Position numbers and translations under genes: made by a program. A stretch of DNA of 64,000 bases, taken from positions 25,847,124-25,911,123 of the forward strand of contig NC_135214.1 of NCBI RefSeq assembly GCF_052324685.1, written 5' to 3'. Numbering within the stretch: the stretch's first letter is position 1; every line of letters begins with the position of its first letter. The notes beneath the pieces are model-generated. The model was not told where the DNA came from and ran no database searches. It worked only from the letters and a program-made list of their open reading frames with translations. Origin of the DNA: Brachyhypopomus gauderio (lineage: Eukaryota; Chordata; Actinopteri; Gymnotiformes; Hypopomidae). Positions 1 through 39,240 of this stretch are shown one piece after another.

Positions 1-666
1 CCTCATATGACTCCACACATAGTGAGACGTTAGAAGGTGTTTGGCTGGGGTCTGCTGTGAGGGGTACGGAGGTGCTGTGTGAAGTCACATCTTAGAGAGG
101 GCTGTGAAGCGCTCCCAGAGAAGAGCCCACGCTGTACTCCTGAACGGCCTGCAGGGGGCACTCACAGCTATTTGGATCAGCCTTCGTATTAACATTTAAT
201 ACTACATCTTTAAGAGAATCTGTATGGATTATTTTATAAAATAACAAATAATGTCACTTATGGAGTATGATAAATGAGCCGGATTTTCATTTGTCTTCCT
301 AAATACGTTTTGCCTTAATTAACTTTTTCACGAGTATGCAATGTAAAACATTACAGTTTTAAAAGCTAAAATATCAGTGTATATCTTGATAAAATAAGGT
401 GAAATATATAACAATTCACTTGTGAGCAATAAATGAATCAGCACTTTGTTTCAGAAAAAGAAGTTTATATATAACTATGTCTTTTCATAAACTATTTACA
501 TACACTATTTACATACATTCCCATGAAACAAAACCCAAATAAATTAAATCAATGCCAGTCACCTGCTGAAATACAACACTCATTCTCCGCTCTGAGCACA
601 TCAGCTATTGTAATGCAACAGCAGGACCCATCAGCAATTCAGCAAGACAGGAAGGCTGTAGGAGGG

Positions 667-668
<2 letters not shown>

Positions 669-715
<47 letters not shown>

Positions 716-716
716 C
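669..716. repeat. (TG)n microsatellite with GC-alternating end
   Basis: About 48 bp of alternating purine-pyrimidine, TG turning into GCGCGC, directly 3' of the stop codon of the 719-1811 gene. The remaining bases 1-668 show no exon I can support; they are AT-rich and unremarkable. Confidence 0.9.
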
Positions 717-718
717 TG

Positions 719-1811
719 CTATCTGTATGAGACTGTAATGAAAGGTGTGTGTAGAAGCCGAACCCCATAACTCTCACATGGTTGTGTGTTGGTGTGTGTT
801 GTGCTGCAGTGTAGGGCCAGTCCCATCTCCAGCGCTGCCTGTAGAGGGCGCTCTCCCCATTCCTCATTACCCTCCCCCCACGCAGCAGTAGCAGGCTTCA
901 GCAGGGCTGGGGTGATGTCCTGGGGCTCCAGCGCCCTGCTCAACCCCCCCACCCGCCGTATGTCCAGGAGCTGCCTCTCTGTGGACCTGCTGCTAAACAC
1001 ACGCTGCAGAGTCTGGAAGGCGAACAACAGGTCCACCCTCACCTCCAGCACACGGTCCCAGGTCCAGGACTGGAACCTACACGCACAAATACACCCAAAT
1101 TATTATGGAAGAGATGAGCAGAACCTGTGAGGAGACACAGTAACTACAGCCCTCCAGATCTCCCAGAAACACGCCTCACCTCGTGGGCAGATGACGCTTC
1201 TCCAGCGAGGGCAGCAGCGGATGCACGTTCAGGTTTTCGGGGTTTGAAATGTGGAGATGAATCTCGGCCCTCGTGATCGTCGCAGACAGCACGTCTTCAC
1301 TGAGCAGAAACTCTATGTTTGAGCCTAGGAGTTGAGAAAGCTTGTTAATGCTCACCGTAACGTTAACATCTTCAGTTTAACCATGAAGTCTCCATGTTTA
1401 ATACTGAACTGCGCTGAAGCAGAACTTACCGCCGACATCTCGACCTTGTAGTCCTTTAACGCTTCCGCACCGATATCCCTTCTGGCAGCACCGGTAAACC
1501 CGTCTAACGTAACGGAACAGGGGTTGCTCCGGGAACACGGGCCGACGAGGGACATCTCTAGACATGGGCGATATCTTCAGCCGATATAAATGGCTCCAGG
1601 TAGCAAAAGGAAAGTTTATTTCCGTCCATGGTGCAGACAGCAGGGAGCAATACTGCTGCTGGCCGCTCTCGGGTTCCTCCGGGCTCCTGCGCTCCTGTAC
1701 TGCTGAGAACCTCGGGATCCGTCCACGTAATGACAGACAGTGAAGACCCACAATAAAATACACGAACGTGAAAATACTAAAGCCGACCCACGTGTTCCGA
1801 AACATAGTCAT
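719..1811 (-). CDS. Unrecognised secreted protein, TGF-beta-propeptide-like, 294 aa
   Basis: Three coding exons (1430-1811, 1180-1324, 719-1076) join in phase with GT/AG sites to give 294 residues ending in TAG. Residues about 8-28 are hydrophobic and look like a signal peptide or signal anchor; a second ATG lies two codons in. The middle (SATITRAEIHLHISNP) and later part (RQLLDIRRV, LEPQDITPALL, then ALEMGLALHC and GVRLLHTPFITVSY) follow the order of strand motifs seen in TGF-beta family propeptides (AEL strand, LLDTR..., FDVTPA..., final LLV-type strand). No RXXR-plus-cysteine-knot ligand follows; the protein stops there. I do not recognise an ortholog, and the family assignment is inference from pattern only. 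The stop codon lies directly beside a TG/GC microsatellite, so the C terminus could vary between alleles. It lies in tandem with hps4 upstream, both on the minus strand. Confidence 0.6.
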
Positions 1812-2448
1812 CTCAAAACGTCCAACACGGACCAGCAGGTTAAGACGCCGATGTGCCGAGGCTCAGCCCGATTTATGGTGTGAAGCCACCCGGTCCGACA
1901 ATAGAGGTTCTGGTCGACTCCCCTCTCTCCTCCCCCCCCGGGGGCTGTAGGGCTGTTTAGCTGCCCATTAACACCCCCTGACTGGGGTAAATACAGCTGC
2001 ATAATGCGGCCTTCAGTATACAGCCACTAGTGCGTGTTATCTGGCCCCTTAATGACCCTAAAGTATACGAGGACCATTACCAACACAACACTCATTTGCA
2101 ACAGAAACCGCTCCAACTGAGAGGGTATAAAACCTTTTTCTTTACTACCGTCAGGTGACCCGGCGGACAATAGCACGCCGTACACGTCCTGTAAACGAAC
2201 AGACGGGTAACGGACACACGGGCACCTGGCGCCGCGCGGCATTCTAGTTTTACACCTTTTTAAAAACTTCGCTAACCCAATATAGTCTACACATTTTACG
2301 ACGTCGTCCAAGGACGCTGCGTTATTACGCATACGCGGTTTGTCCACTTTGTACGTTAAAAAACTTGTTTAACTTGGTATGAAGCGTTTGTTAGCGAGTT
2401 TACGCGGACAGCACAAATCCGTATACAAACAAATGATAATTAAACTCA
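1812..2448. other. Intergenic interval between hps4 3' end and the upstream-oriented orphan gene
   Basis: This holds the putative promoter of the 719-1811 gene near 1812-2000 and then the region beyond the hps4 polyadenylation signal. A 106-codon minus-strand open frame at 2027-2347 has no recognisable domain or supporting splice context, so I do not call it a gene. Confidence 0.5.
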
Positions 2449-3387: not shown

Positions 3388-6300
3388 CATATACACACAC
3401 ATGCACATATACATGCATACACACATACCAAACATTAATCACATAACAGTATTTCTATTAATACACAGTATTTCTATTAATACATTGACACTCCACACCC
3501 TGGTACTATACTCCACACCCTGGTACTACTCCATCCTGCCAAACAGGAGCCCCCACGTCAGACCTTACACAGCAATATCACCCTGTAGTACCTCCATAGC
3601 GTGCGTCACAACAACCTGGAGCATAGTGTATGTCTGTGTGTGTGTGTGAGAGAGAGAGAGTTTCTGAGTAAGACAGAGAGACTCACTGGTAAGAGTGTTC
3701 TGGATGCAGTCATAGTGAGTGAAGACATATGGCCCTTGGGCCCCTGGGGGTCCTAGTGGGCCTGGGAGTCCAGTGGAGGCTGTCCTTAGATGAGCCTCCA
3801 GCCCATTCAGAGACGCCAAACTACTGAAGCACTGCAGCAATCACACACACACACACACACCCATGGTGTACAACCTTGTCTCAAACAATCACACAAATCT
3901 CATTCTCAAACACACACAGGTCATCACAGAGGTCCTCACCACATCTTCCCTGTCGTCTGTGCTGAAGTGACGCTCCACCAACAGGGAGAGGACCAGACCT
4001 CTCACCCTGTGCTGATACAACAGCAGTGGCACCAGAGCTGCTTGTGAGGGGCTCCGATAGTCCCCACGCCTTTCCACCCCACTCACCTCCGTCTCCCTCA
4101 CCTCCGTCACCTCCCCCCTCACCTCAGTCACCTCATCGCTCACCTCCGTCACCTCCCCCCTCACCTCCGTCATGTCTCTGCTCACCTCCCCCCTCACCTC
4201 TGTCATGTCTCTGCTCACCTCCCCCCTCACCTCCGTCACCTCCCCCCTCACCTCCGTCATGTCTCTGCTCACCTCCCCCCTCACCCCCGTCATGTCTCTG
4301 CTCACCTTCCCCCTCACCCCCGTCATGTCTCTGCTCACCTCCCCCCTCACCTCCGTCATGTCTCTGCTCACCTCCCCCCTCACCTCCGTCACCTCCCCCC
4401 TCACCTCCGTCATGTCTCTGCTCACCTCCCCCCTCACCTCCGTCACCTCCCCCCTCACCTCCTCCCTCACTCCTTCACTCACTTCCTGGATGTGTTGGGC
4501 TGAACTGTCCTGCCCTGATGTGTTGCTTACTGTGACCTCTAAACCCTCTGCCTCTAAACCCTCTGCCTCATTCCTGTCATCCTCTGACCTGATGGGACTG
4601 CCACTTTCACACATAACGCTCTCTATGACCTTATATGGCAGGGTCCCATTTGGCAAGCTGTGGTCCTGTGAGTCAGAACGGGTTCTTTCTGTTTCACTCA
4701 TCATAGTGGAGTTAAGACTGCTGACTGTTGACGGGCACAGACTATAGGAAGCAGAGGAGGAGGAGGAGGGAGGGGAGGACATTGTCTGATAGACTGGAGG
4801 TGGACAGTAGGCGGAGTCTAATTCAGCAGGGTCCAGTTCAGTGGTTGGTATGTCAGAGAGAGTGCGTGAAAGCAGGCGGGTCTTTCTGGGCTGGTCCGGA
4901 GGTTGAGGAGTGCAATGACATCTGATGAAGCAAAAAGACACAGAAGCCTGAGAAACCTAAACTTACAACAATGTTGAGGTTCTGTTTGAACGCATCTGAT
5001 GTATTATTCACTCTCTGATCTCTGCATGATGTCATGATTTCTCTTACACATTATCCTACATTTCAGAGCAGGGTCACTGTGCTGTTTTCTGTTCTTCCAA
5101 TTGAGCTATAGAGTTGAAGACTAGTACCTGCAGGAGTTGTCCACTGGGTGGCACTGCAACACGTGTAGTTCAGAGGAGGTCAGGAATACAGTTGTTGTGA
5201 CTGTGCTGGAAGAAGGCGTGGCCCCAGACAAGCACACTCCATTGGCCAGCAGCCCGTCTTCCTGTGGAGGGGTGGGTCTAAGCTCTGGCACCAGGTACAT
5301 TTATTTTGGAACAGGTACGGCTATACTGGTTTGAGTGGCTGGTTTCTACCTGGCTGTAGGTCTCTGTCTCCTGCACCATCACCTTCCTTGTGAGCTCTGG
5401 AGGCATCTGTGTGCTCAGCACTCTGTACAGACACGCACACACACAGACAGACAGACAATATGCAGATTTATAATCACTGGAAGATCCCTGGTTGTGTTTT
5501 TCGAGACCCCACGGAAGTCCTTCACGGTATGGCAGAAGAAAACAGCATCATCAAGAAATTAGACAAATGTGTAAAGTTTGTATTATGCACCCACCTGCCC
5601 TGGTAGAGGAGGCAGCCTGCCAACACTAGAGGGCAGCGCTGACATGCCTGCAAGATGAGAGCTGCCTTCAACAGCAACAGGGGGTCAATCTGTGGGCAGC
5701 GCACAGAGGTAGAGCAGCAGACATCAGCTTCCGCACAGATAACACCATAAACAACAGATGCTGGAACGGTTACTTTTGCCTGCCACGTCAGACATACGCG
5801 TGTGGAGTCGACGGTATTCAGGCAGCTGAAGATGTGGTGCAGCTCAGTGGTGCCGCCCTGCAGGTGGGAGAGACAGCGTGCCCAACGCAGGGCCAGCTCC
5901 CCTCGGCTGTGCAGCTGCGTTGCAGAGACAAGTAGCAAAGTCATGGCGCCTTTGGGCCGACACAGCAAAATCATATCATTCAGAGGAGGACAAACCCACT
6001 TCTTGTTTCCTGATGCAGTAAGCATGCTGTTTTTAAGATATTTGGATGTTATTTATGACCATTTTAAGCTGTGATGTCACACTAATGTACAATTGCGGAG
6101 TGAACATTTTGGTGGATAAAGCACACAAGGGCAAGTCTGTCATGTCTGTCGTGCAGTCTGTCATTCAGTAAAGGAGTCTGTTAACCTTCCCACGGTCAGA
6201 CGAAGCATCACAGTTAAAACCAGGACAGAAGTGCAGATGTACCTGGTAGCTCTGCTGGACTGGGCCATTGTAGAAACAGAAAAGGTCAATGAGTTGATCC

Positions 6301-16447: not shown

Positions 16448-19293
16448 GTCATGCCCGAAAGTACCCTCATACCCCTGGCAAATTTTGACTTAAATTTACT
16501 TTTATTTAACCAGAAATTATATTTTTGACTGGAAATGACACAGGCATCTCCCAGGAGATAATACGATGATGTACAAGAGGCATCATTGTGGGAAAAAATA
16601 TTTCTCAGCTTTTGTTCACATTTGAACAAAAAAGGGCATGCCCAAAATTATTCATACCCTTTGAAACATATCACAGTATAACAGTATATGGGAAATCCAA
16701 AGTTCTATACAATTCCAAATAGTCCAAGCTGTTTTAAAGCATCCTAATTACCCTGATTCATGGGGAACAGCTGTTTTAATCAACTCAACAGGAGAAAACC
16801 AGCAGCTCTCTGCAGTTGGTTTGTGGACAGTCATCATGGCTAAGACAAAGTAGCTCACTAAGGACCTGCGGCTGTGCATTGTGGTTGCTCACAAGTCAGG
16901 AAAGCGCTATAAAGTAGTGATGGGCAAATGAAGCCTCTTGAAGCAATGAAGTTTTCCAACCCTTTGCTTTGCAAAAAGGTTCATTACTCGAGGCTTCATT
17001 CATCACTCACTAGTGACATCTGCTGGTGAAACTGTAACAGCCTCGTCATTCAGTTGGATCATACTTTCAACAATGTGTAAATGCAATATTGTCACAAAGT
17101 TTCCATCAAACTCATGTTTAGTAACAGGAGAATCAATTAAATCATACTTAATTGTCATGTTTTAATTATTAAAATGATTTGTAGCCAATCTAATCCTTGA
17201 CCATTAGTGGTTGTGTTGGGTTTTCTTGTATGTCATGAACGTATTTGACAATGAAGATATGTTGTACTTTACTATGTTGGGAATTGAGTGATTGTTGAGT
17301 GACTGAATATTTGGAATTAGAAACTGATTTTTTTTAAAAACAGAATGTGTTTAAAATAATTGCTTCTTGGGGCTTCTAGATCTGGTTTGGCAGTCATGAC
17401 CTGGTGGTTAGGGAAGGGAAGTGGTTAGGGAACTGAGCTTGTAATCGGAGGGTCGTGGGTTCGATCCCCAGGCCTGAGGCCAGGGGCGAGGCTAGGGTAT
17501 TTTTAGTGGTGCTAGAGCACCACCGTGAAGTTGCTTAGCACCCCCTGGCTCAACACATTTTTTAAACATTATATTATGCAAAAAACTTGCTCTGCACCTG
17601 CGCAATACTTTGGTATTGTGCCTCTGTGAGCACTGGGGGCTGGGCACCCCTAAAGACCAGATCCTAAAATCGCCCCTGCCTGAGGCCATGACTAAGGTGC
17701 CCCTTAACCCTCAATTGTTCACTTATATAAAAATGAGATAAAATGTAAGTCGCTCTGGATAAGGGCGTCTGCCAAATGTAAAATATTTTTAACATTACAA
17801 ATAAGGTTTGCCTCTTCCAATGGTTTTTAGTCTGTTTTTGATGTGTGAATCTGATGTACATCCTGATCAAACAAAAAGAATTTAGAACGTTCCAGATTTT
17901 AAATTTAACTACAACACGAAGCAACAGGGTTCATAGCGCTTTTATTTAGAAAAACGATACGCAAAATGAAGCAATGACGTGGCTGATGTAATGCGAGGCC
18001 TCGTTTGTTGCTGATCACGTGATTTTGCTCAACATGACACAAGCTCCGAAGCGGGGCTTCATCGGACACGCCCCTTTTTACTCGGTACACGCTTCGAAGC
18101 CTAGCTTCAGATGTCCCATCACTACTATAAAGCCATATCAAAATGTTTTCAAGTTCCTGTGGCTACAGTGCAAAGTATTATTAAAAAATACAAGAAGTTC
18201 CGCACTGTGGAAAATCTCAGAAAATGTGGTTGGAAGCCAAAAGTGACACATGTGCTGGCCAGGAGAATAGTGAGAGAGGTGAAGAAAAATCCAAGGATCA
18301 CCACCAAGGCCATCCTGGTGAATCTGGGCTCTGCTGGTGGCGACATCTCAAGGCAGACAGTCCAACGGACACTGCACACTGCTGGGTTCCACGGACGCAG
18401 ACCAAGGAGGACACCACTTCTCCAGAAAAGGCACACAAAAGCCCACTTGACCTTTGCAAATGATCATCTGGACAAAGAAGAAGACTTCTGGTGTTCTGTT
18501 TTATGGTCAGATGAAACAAAAATTGAATTGTTTGGCCACAATGATGTGACCACCATTTGGTGTAAAAACAGAGAAGCCTTCAACCCTAAGAACACCATCC
18601 CCACTGTCAAACATGGTGGTGGGAACCTAATGTTTTGGGGGTGTTTTTCAGCCAATGAACCAGGGAACTTGATCGCAGTAAATGGCACCATGAAAAAAGA
18701 GCAATACATCAAGATTCTCAACAACAACATCAGGCAGTCTGCAGAGAAACTTGGCCTTGGGAACCAGTGGACATTTAAGCATGACAACGACCCAAAACAC
18801 ACAGCCAAAGTGGTGAATAAATGGTTAGCAGACAAAAACATTAATGCTTTGCAGTGGCCCAGCCAGAGTCCTGACTTGAATCCAATTGAGAATCTGTGGA
18901 GGGAGCTAAAGATCAGGGTGATGGCAAGGAGACCCTCCAACCTCAAAGAGTTGGAGCTCATCACTAAAGATGAATGGACAAAAATACCAGTGGAGACGTG
19001 CAAAAAGCTGGTCAGCAAAATTACAGGAAGCATTTGATTGCTGTAATAAAGCCAATAAAGGCTTTTCTATTAATTATTGAGAAGGGATGAATAATTTGAC
19101 ATGCCATTTTTTGTTCAAATGTGAATAAAAGCTGAGAAATATTTTTTCCCCACAATGATGCCTCTTGTACATCATCGTATTATCTCCTGGGAGATGCCTG
19201 TGTCATTTCCAGTCAGAAATATAATTTCTGGTTAAATAAAAGTAAATTTAAGTCAAAATGTGTCAGGGGTATGAATACAGTCAGGCATGACTG

Positions 19294-21579: not shown

Positions 21580-28399
<6,820 letters not shown>

Positions 28400-37173: not shown

Positions 37174-39240
<2,067 letters not shown>

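Follow-up and report, generated by a model that had tools for sequence, protein, structure and literature searches.

As a rule, a TGF-beta prodomain is produced along with the ligand that it folds and holds. Among the closest described systems, transcripts of Atlantic salmon mis (AMH) encode the prodomain only, and the authors of that study suggest possible modulation of other TGF-beta members (PMC3034696). Choanoflagellates have TGFb_propeptide proteins separate from any TGF_beta domain, as described in an eLife 2018 paper (PMC6040629), and the GDF11/myostatin propeptide serves as an inhibitor, according to a further report (PMC6537384). No propeptide-only vertebrate gene was among the matches listed in our literature search, in which few subscription papers were covered.

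Here we describe a gene of the fish Brachyhypopomus gauderio whose predicted product resembles the arm of such a prodomain. The gene lies in a stretch of 64,000 nucleotides (C4:25847124-25911123; genome 796.5 Mb), called the window below; positions are counted from its first nucleotide. On the minus strand, the coding sequence is made up of exon 1 with the ATG (1811-1430, 382 nt), exon 2 with a beta-1-like strand (1324-1180, 145 nt) and exon 3 with the remainder of the arm-like region (1076-719, 358 nt), separated by a phase-1 intron of 105 nt (1325..1429) and a phase-2 intron of 103 nt with a weak acceptor (1077..1179). Spliced, it amounts to 885 nt and 294 amino acids and ends in a TAG stop (721-719). 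The initial annotation had proposed three exons closing in phase, and the model agrees: the joins are in phase and every internal border carries GT/AG. It had also listed the strings AEIHLHI, LLDIRRV, DITPALL and LLHTPFITVSY as propeptide landmarks, all of which are present in the order given, and had placed the stop where a cleavage site and cysteine knot would be expected to begin; the TAG indeed follows directly after the last arm-like strand.

When splice sites in window positions 1-2400 were ranked by simple weight matrices on the minus strand, the donors of introns 1 and 2 came 3rd and 1st among 174 GT sites, and the acceptors were weaker, at 12th and 24th among 157 AG sites. The exon 3 acceptor scores -0.41, and a rival AG with 1124 as its first exon base is far stronger at 6.55; its use would give a 55-nt intron and then a stop seven codons in. 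A body of 291 codons stayed open in only 1 of 20000 Markov-1 copies, and the two alternative frames contain 8 and 9 stops. Codon-position asymmetry is clear in exon 2 (chi2 22.8) and exon 3 (chi2 15.6, 6 df each) and absent from exon 1 (chi2 5.7, 6 df). For the whole coding sequence the value is 29.8, equalled by 6.3% of 4000 random window pieces, a count in which pieces without some base gave NaN and were scored as not reaching the observed value.

The hydrophobic N-terminus occupies residues 1-26 (1811-1734), with a 15-residue hydropathy peak of 2.2 starting at residue 9, a description based on hydropathy only. No glycosylation sequon occurs in the 294 residues. Cysteines are found at residues 25, 55, 108, 109, 115, 266 and 276. 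By eye, Cys266 sits at the arm Cys position of TGF-beta, activin and inhibin, as seen in loci L026, L052 and L042 of the same genome, and both it and Cys276 presumably lie near where the prodomains of these three carry their bowtie cysteines.

A first line of evidence for family membership is a chain of landmarks in the order of the prodomain arm. When blocks and spacing limits were drawn from 12 human propeptides, the highest-scoring chain was PEQPLFRYVR, TITRAEIHLHI, LLDIRRVG, PQDITPALLKPA, AALEMGLALHC, HTPFITVSYR. Landmark 2, beta-1-like, is TITRAEIHLHI (1248..1280, minus strand, as are all that follow; residues 143-153), and landmark 3 is LLDIRRVG (947..970, residues 212-219). Landmarks 4 (PQDITPALLKPA, 890..925, residues 227-238) and 5 (AALEMGLALHC, 806..838, residues 256-266) both score low, and the chain sets the latter, with Cys266, two residues off the register of the family Cys. 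Landmark 6, HTPFITVSYR (722..751, residues 285-294), is the last arm-like strand before the stop. The chain scores 44.05, a value reached by 0 of 5000 shuffles (maximum 34.7), 0 of 408 window pieces and 0 of 60 pieces of locus L001. The human references themselves, each scored with its own blocks left out, gave between 4.8 (for GDF5, a partial sequence) and 105.5; INHA reached 27.7, NODAL 41.5 and MSTN 47.8. With blocks from the fish's own loci only, the same positions were recovered at a score of 38.2, which was matched by 0 of 5000 shuffles and 0 of 1210 half-overlapping pieces (maximum 32.3).

An arm-only chain gave 36.6 (z 5.57; 0 of 5000 shuffles), which tops 9 of 11 held-out propeptides from the same genome, whose arms were cut by hand and whose gene names are our reading of the sequences. 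These scored 12.3 for inhibin alpha, 26.5, 32.3 and 52.2 for nodals, 28.2, 35.6 and 43.5 for inhibin betas, 28.2 for a GDF9/BMP15-type locus, 26.8 and 30.3 for GDF10-type loci and 32.6 for L054; lefty, AMH and GDNF-type loci stood outside this scoring. Scored one at a time with the human blocks, the strongest landmarks are the final strand (equalled by 59 of 10000 shuffles) and beta-1 (388 of 10000), and the others are unremarkable alone. An initial chain built without spacing limits also beat 3000 shuffles, but placed landmarks 1-4 elsewhere. The blocks were cut by hand after the query had been viewed, a possible source of bias. In both sets, members for which block placement failed were omitted from single landmarks, for example TGFB3, MSTN, NODAL and INHA from landmark 3, NODAL from landmark 5 and LEFTY1 from landmark 6 of the human set, and L013 and L018 from landmark 3 of the fish set; two landmark-6 blocks of the fish set cross a splice junction.

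A second line of evidence comes from the intron ahead of beta-1. We examined 35 family loci in this genome, and in 34 of them the acceptor that scores highest ahead of that strand belongs to a phase-1 intron; in the remaining locus, L025, the phase-1 acceptor ranks second. Loci represented by exon 1 only, those whose exon is masked and those in which an arm exon went undetected are outside the count of 35. The family intron lies 14.7-37.7 codons ahead of the beta-1 Ala or its substitute residue. Intron 1 of the query is likewise in phase 1, 18.67 codons ahead of the beta-1 Ala, and has the top acceptor there. The extremes of the family range are set by L054 and L055, in both of which the placement of beta-1 is doubtful; without them the range narrows to 21.7-34.7 codons and the query, at 18.7, falls three codons outside. 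As a phase match is expected by chance in one case out of three, the intron supports a family origin but does not prove it. Intron 2, in phase 2, has no clear family counterpart; as we read them, introns that come shortly after beta-1 in the two ADMP-like loci are in phase 0, and those of the BMP5-8-like loci are in phase 2.

Standard searches were less receptive. The 294-residue protein had no PF00688 match, nor any other Pfam match, at E up to 10 in HMMER, and no match in NCBIfam, which is mainly a prokaryotic library. The Pfam propeptide model is blunt: among six human propeptides, four scored above its cut-off, NODAL reached 23.1 bits against a cut-off of 25.8 and INHA went unmatched. Purpose-built HMMs of 12 human, 21 fish (several of them incomplete) and all 33 propeptides gave the query 1.0-1.9 bits, which is marginal, being equalled by 39 of 2000 shuffles (HMMER reported 1414 of these, and the denominator was kept at 2000) and by 50-53 of 3000, or about 2%. 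In hhalign, 5 of 200 shuffles were as good as the query in local mode, and the global mode was negative, with 164 of 200 shuffles equal or better. Pairwise alignment to 32 fish propeptides was weak (best z 3.0), and in the two alignments that we inspected landmarks were not paired with landmarks. Single-sequence structure prediction of exon 3 alone returned only helices at a mean pLDDT of 39.7, too low in confidence for use.

In latent forms, the straitjacket is the part of the prodomain that grips the ligand. Judged from its sequence, exon 1 contains no recognisable straitjacket (helix/lasso/alpha-2). The alpha-2 landmark (landmark 1) was matched by 3826 of 10000 shuffles and is not significant, and neither is a VRSF motif before the intron (2225 of 5000 shuffles of exon 1; 775 of 20000 of its last 25 residues). 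The propeptide resemblance first noted for this protein is thus partly supported: by the ordered arm landmarks and the phase-1 intron, and not by a PF00688 match or a straitjacket.

In keeping with the accompanying claim that the protein lacks a ligand, our searches of the window, of the adjoining 30 kb and of the genome-wide PF00019 listing brought up none near the gene. No cysteine-knot coding sequence was detected in the six-frame open frames of the window (best E 1.7) or in the 30 kb beyond its left edge (best E 0.85, in low-complexity sequence); the same model gives about 1e-48 for whole ligand domains and up to 4.5e-5 for intron-split pieces in sister loci. None of the 65 PF00019 matches listed across the genome is near, the closest on the contig being at about 13.29 Mb, some 12.5 Mb off. 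A proprotein-convertase site after the arm is absent, RXXR occurring only at residues 31, 100 and 104. Two donors precede the stop, at 777 (CAT/GTGAGA, 3.5) and at 1042 (6.2, which ties the best).

The neighbouring genes bound the locus. Upstream on the same strand lies hps4, whose end at 2820 leaves about 1 kb to the ATG of the prodomain-like gene. The C-terminus of hps4 matches HPS4 of BLOC-3 (8zwc_B, E 2.9e-16), and 8zwc_B is also hit by a second piece, at E 3.5e-10. Downstream, beyond the window and again on the same strand, is hnf1a (HNF-1_N, E 1.1e-35), with its first coding exon about 4.2 kb past the stop at 719 in a tblastn search with human HNF1A as query. With hps4 and hnf1a on the same strand, the limits of the gene are set on both sides. 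The stretch between the stop and the window edge (1..718, minus strand) holds a CA microsatellite at about 670-712 and an ATTAAA at 200. Further left there is a weak malectin-domain match under the Pfam cut-off; an exon of AMPK beta (prkab), matched by AMPKBI, is located further to the right. Within hps4, a tandem peptide array at about 4090-4460 (minus), inside the open frame 3889-4956, attracts weak sub-cut-off Pfam matches to apolipoprotein and coiled-coil models. The window also contains a Tc1-type transposase copy at 18105-19034 (plus strand; HTH_Tnp_Tc3_2 and DDE_3), a second such copy at 24253-25233 (minus strand, read from open frames) and an immunoglobulin-domain exon with a hydrophobic start at 37305-37757 (plus strand).

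Relatives of the gene were also sought. Neither exon 2 nor exon 3 has a close paralogue in the fish's own genome, the next-best matches having E 1.1 and 1.7, the latter in a low-complexity region. Human NODAL gave the top pairwise score among the 12 references (58), as good a score being reached by 31 of 20000 query, 55 of 20000 reference and 8 of 5000 window shuffles. Kinship with NODAL was nevertheless rejected and no subfamily was assigned, because, when 32 propeptides of the fish were ranked, none of its three nodal arms reached the first ten. Pinhead carries CXCXC motifs; the protein has none, and this identity was dropped. A PDB sequence search gave three matches, all to F420 hydrogenase at E 0.24 and above, which we discarded, and viral contigs yielded no relative. 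In genome contigs, a Paracoccus stretch matching at 45% over residues 60-103 of exon 3, with an E-value relative to the candidates only, was put down to chance. Separately, a lefty-like locus has identical scores at C17:7282218 and C145:23866, perhaps an assembly duplicate.

Given the gene model, the open frame, the ordered landmarks, the family-type intron and the absence of a nearby ligand domain, we consider it reasonably probable that this is a diverged TGF-beta-superfamily gene reduced to its prodomain, mainly the arm, which stops where the furin site and the start of the ligand would be expected. It is unlikely that the match is due to chance, the protein being an unrelated, lineage-specific secreted orphan whose hydrophobic strands resemble arm landmarks. 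The missing Pfam match, the marginal full-length profiles and negative global hhalign, an exon 1 unlike the family and the lack of a usable structure would all fit such an orphan, but 0 of 5000 shuffles matched the query in each of three chain tests, and the intron agrees with the family in phase and, roughly, in place.

Rather improbable, in our estimate, is a relic: a defunct TGF-beta-family gene of which, its ligand exon having been lost, only the 5' part survives, drifting and perhaps transcribed even now. The failure to find a ligand, the microsatellite at the stop, the weak exon 3 acceptor and the lack of codon signal in exon 1 are consistent with decay; long drift, however, should leave stops, and the body has remained open, to an extent seen in one Markov-1 copy out of the 20000, despite strong divergence. 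Since exons 2 and 3 have no good match elsewhere in the genome, the gene is probably old, in which case its intact frame speaks against drift. Transcripts that use the donors at 777 or 1042 before the stop, or a far exon, to reach a hidden growth-factor domain are very improbable, as no TGF_beta domain was found in the window or the 30 kb beyond its edge, hnf1a follows at about 4.2 kb on the same strand, the closest PF00019 match that the listing gives for the contig lies some 12.5 Mb off, and splicing from 777 would drop the final strand, the best-scoring one.

If the prodomain-only reading is correct, the gene would descend from a TGF-beta-superfamily precursor whose ligand-coding part was lost, and would be transcribed and kept open by selection. 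Its product would be secreted and fold as an arm domain, in which Cys266 and Cys276 may link disulphide dimers, and could bind the growth factor or the prodomain of another family member. A secreted carrier or decoy would be the most likely role for the predicted protein, which may be a free-standing regulator of TGF-beta-type signals. With the straitjacket unrecognisable, a latching role is doubtful, and the protein would more probably act as a weak escort or decoy than confer true latency. More tentatively, the locus could possibly be a dedicated vertebrate ligand-free prodomain gene, born of growth-factor loss, whose secreted product regulates other members by binding their growth factors or prodomains, the ligand-side mirror of a pseudoreceptor. 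Such a gene would show a prodomain functioning independently in a vertebrate, and would offer a natural, testable decoy or chaperone. As the Pfam model misses human INHA, ligand-less or diverged propeptide genes may sit unnamed and under-annotated elsewhere, which would suggest why propeptide-only genes escape annotation.

Compared with known systems, the gene shares ordered arm strands and family spacing, the phase-1 intron before beta-1 and a Cys near the LxLHC position with TGF-beta superfamily prodomains (PF00688) of the nodal, inhibin alpha and beta, GDF9/BMP15 and GDF10 types. Unlike PF00688 prodomains, it has no PF00688 match, recognisable straitjacket, furin site after the arm or cysteine knot. 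As in the choanoflagellate proteins, a propeptide domain is encoded apart from a TGF_beta domain, although those organisms are non-animals and reportedly have no TGF_beta domain, whereas the present gene is a vertebrate one that presumably arose by loss (PMC6040629). The prodomain products of salmon mis are splice forms of a hormone-bearing gene, and at our locus no ligand exon was found; both are fish prodomain products that end before the hormone (PMC3034696). The GDF11/myostatin propeptide differs in being derived from a full precursor, but, according to that report, it shows that a propeptide on its own can block its growth factor (PMC6537384).
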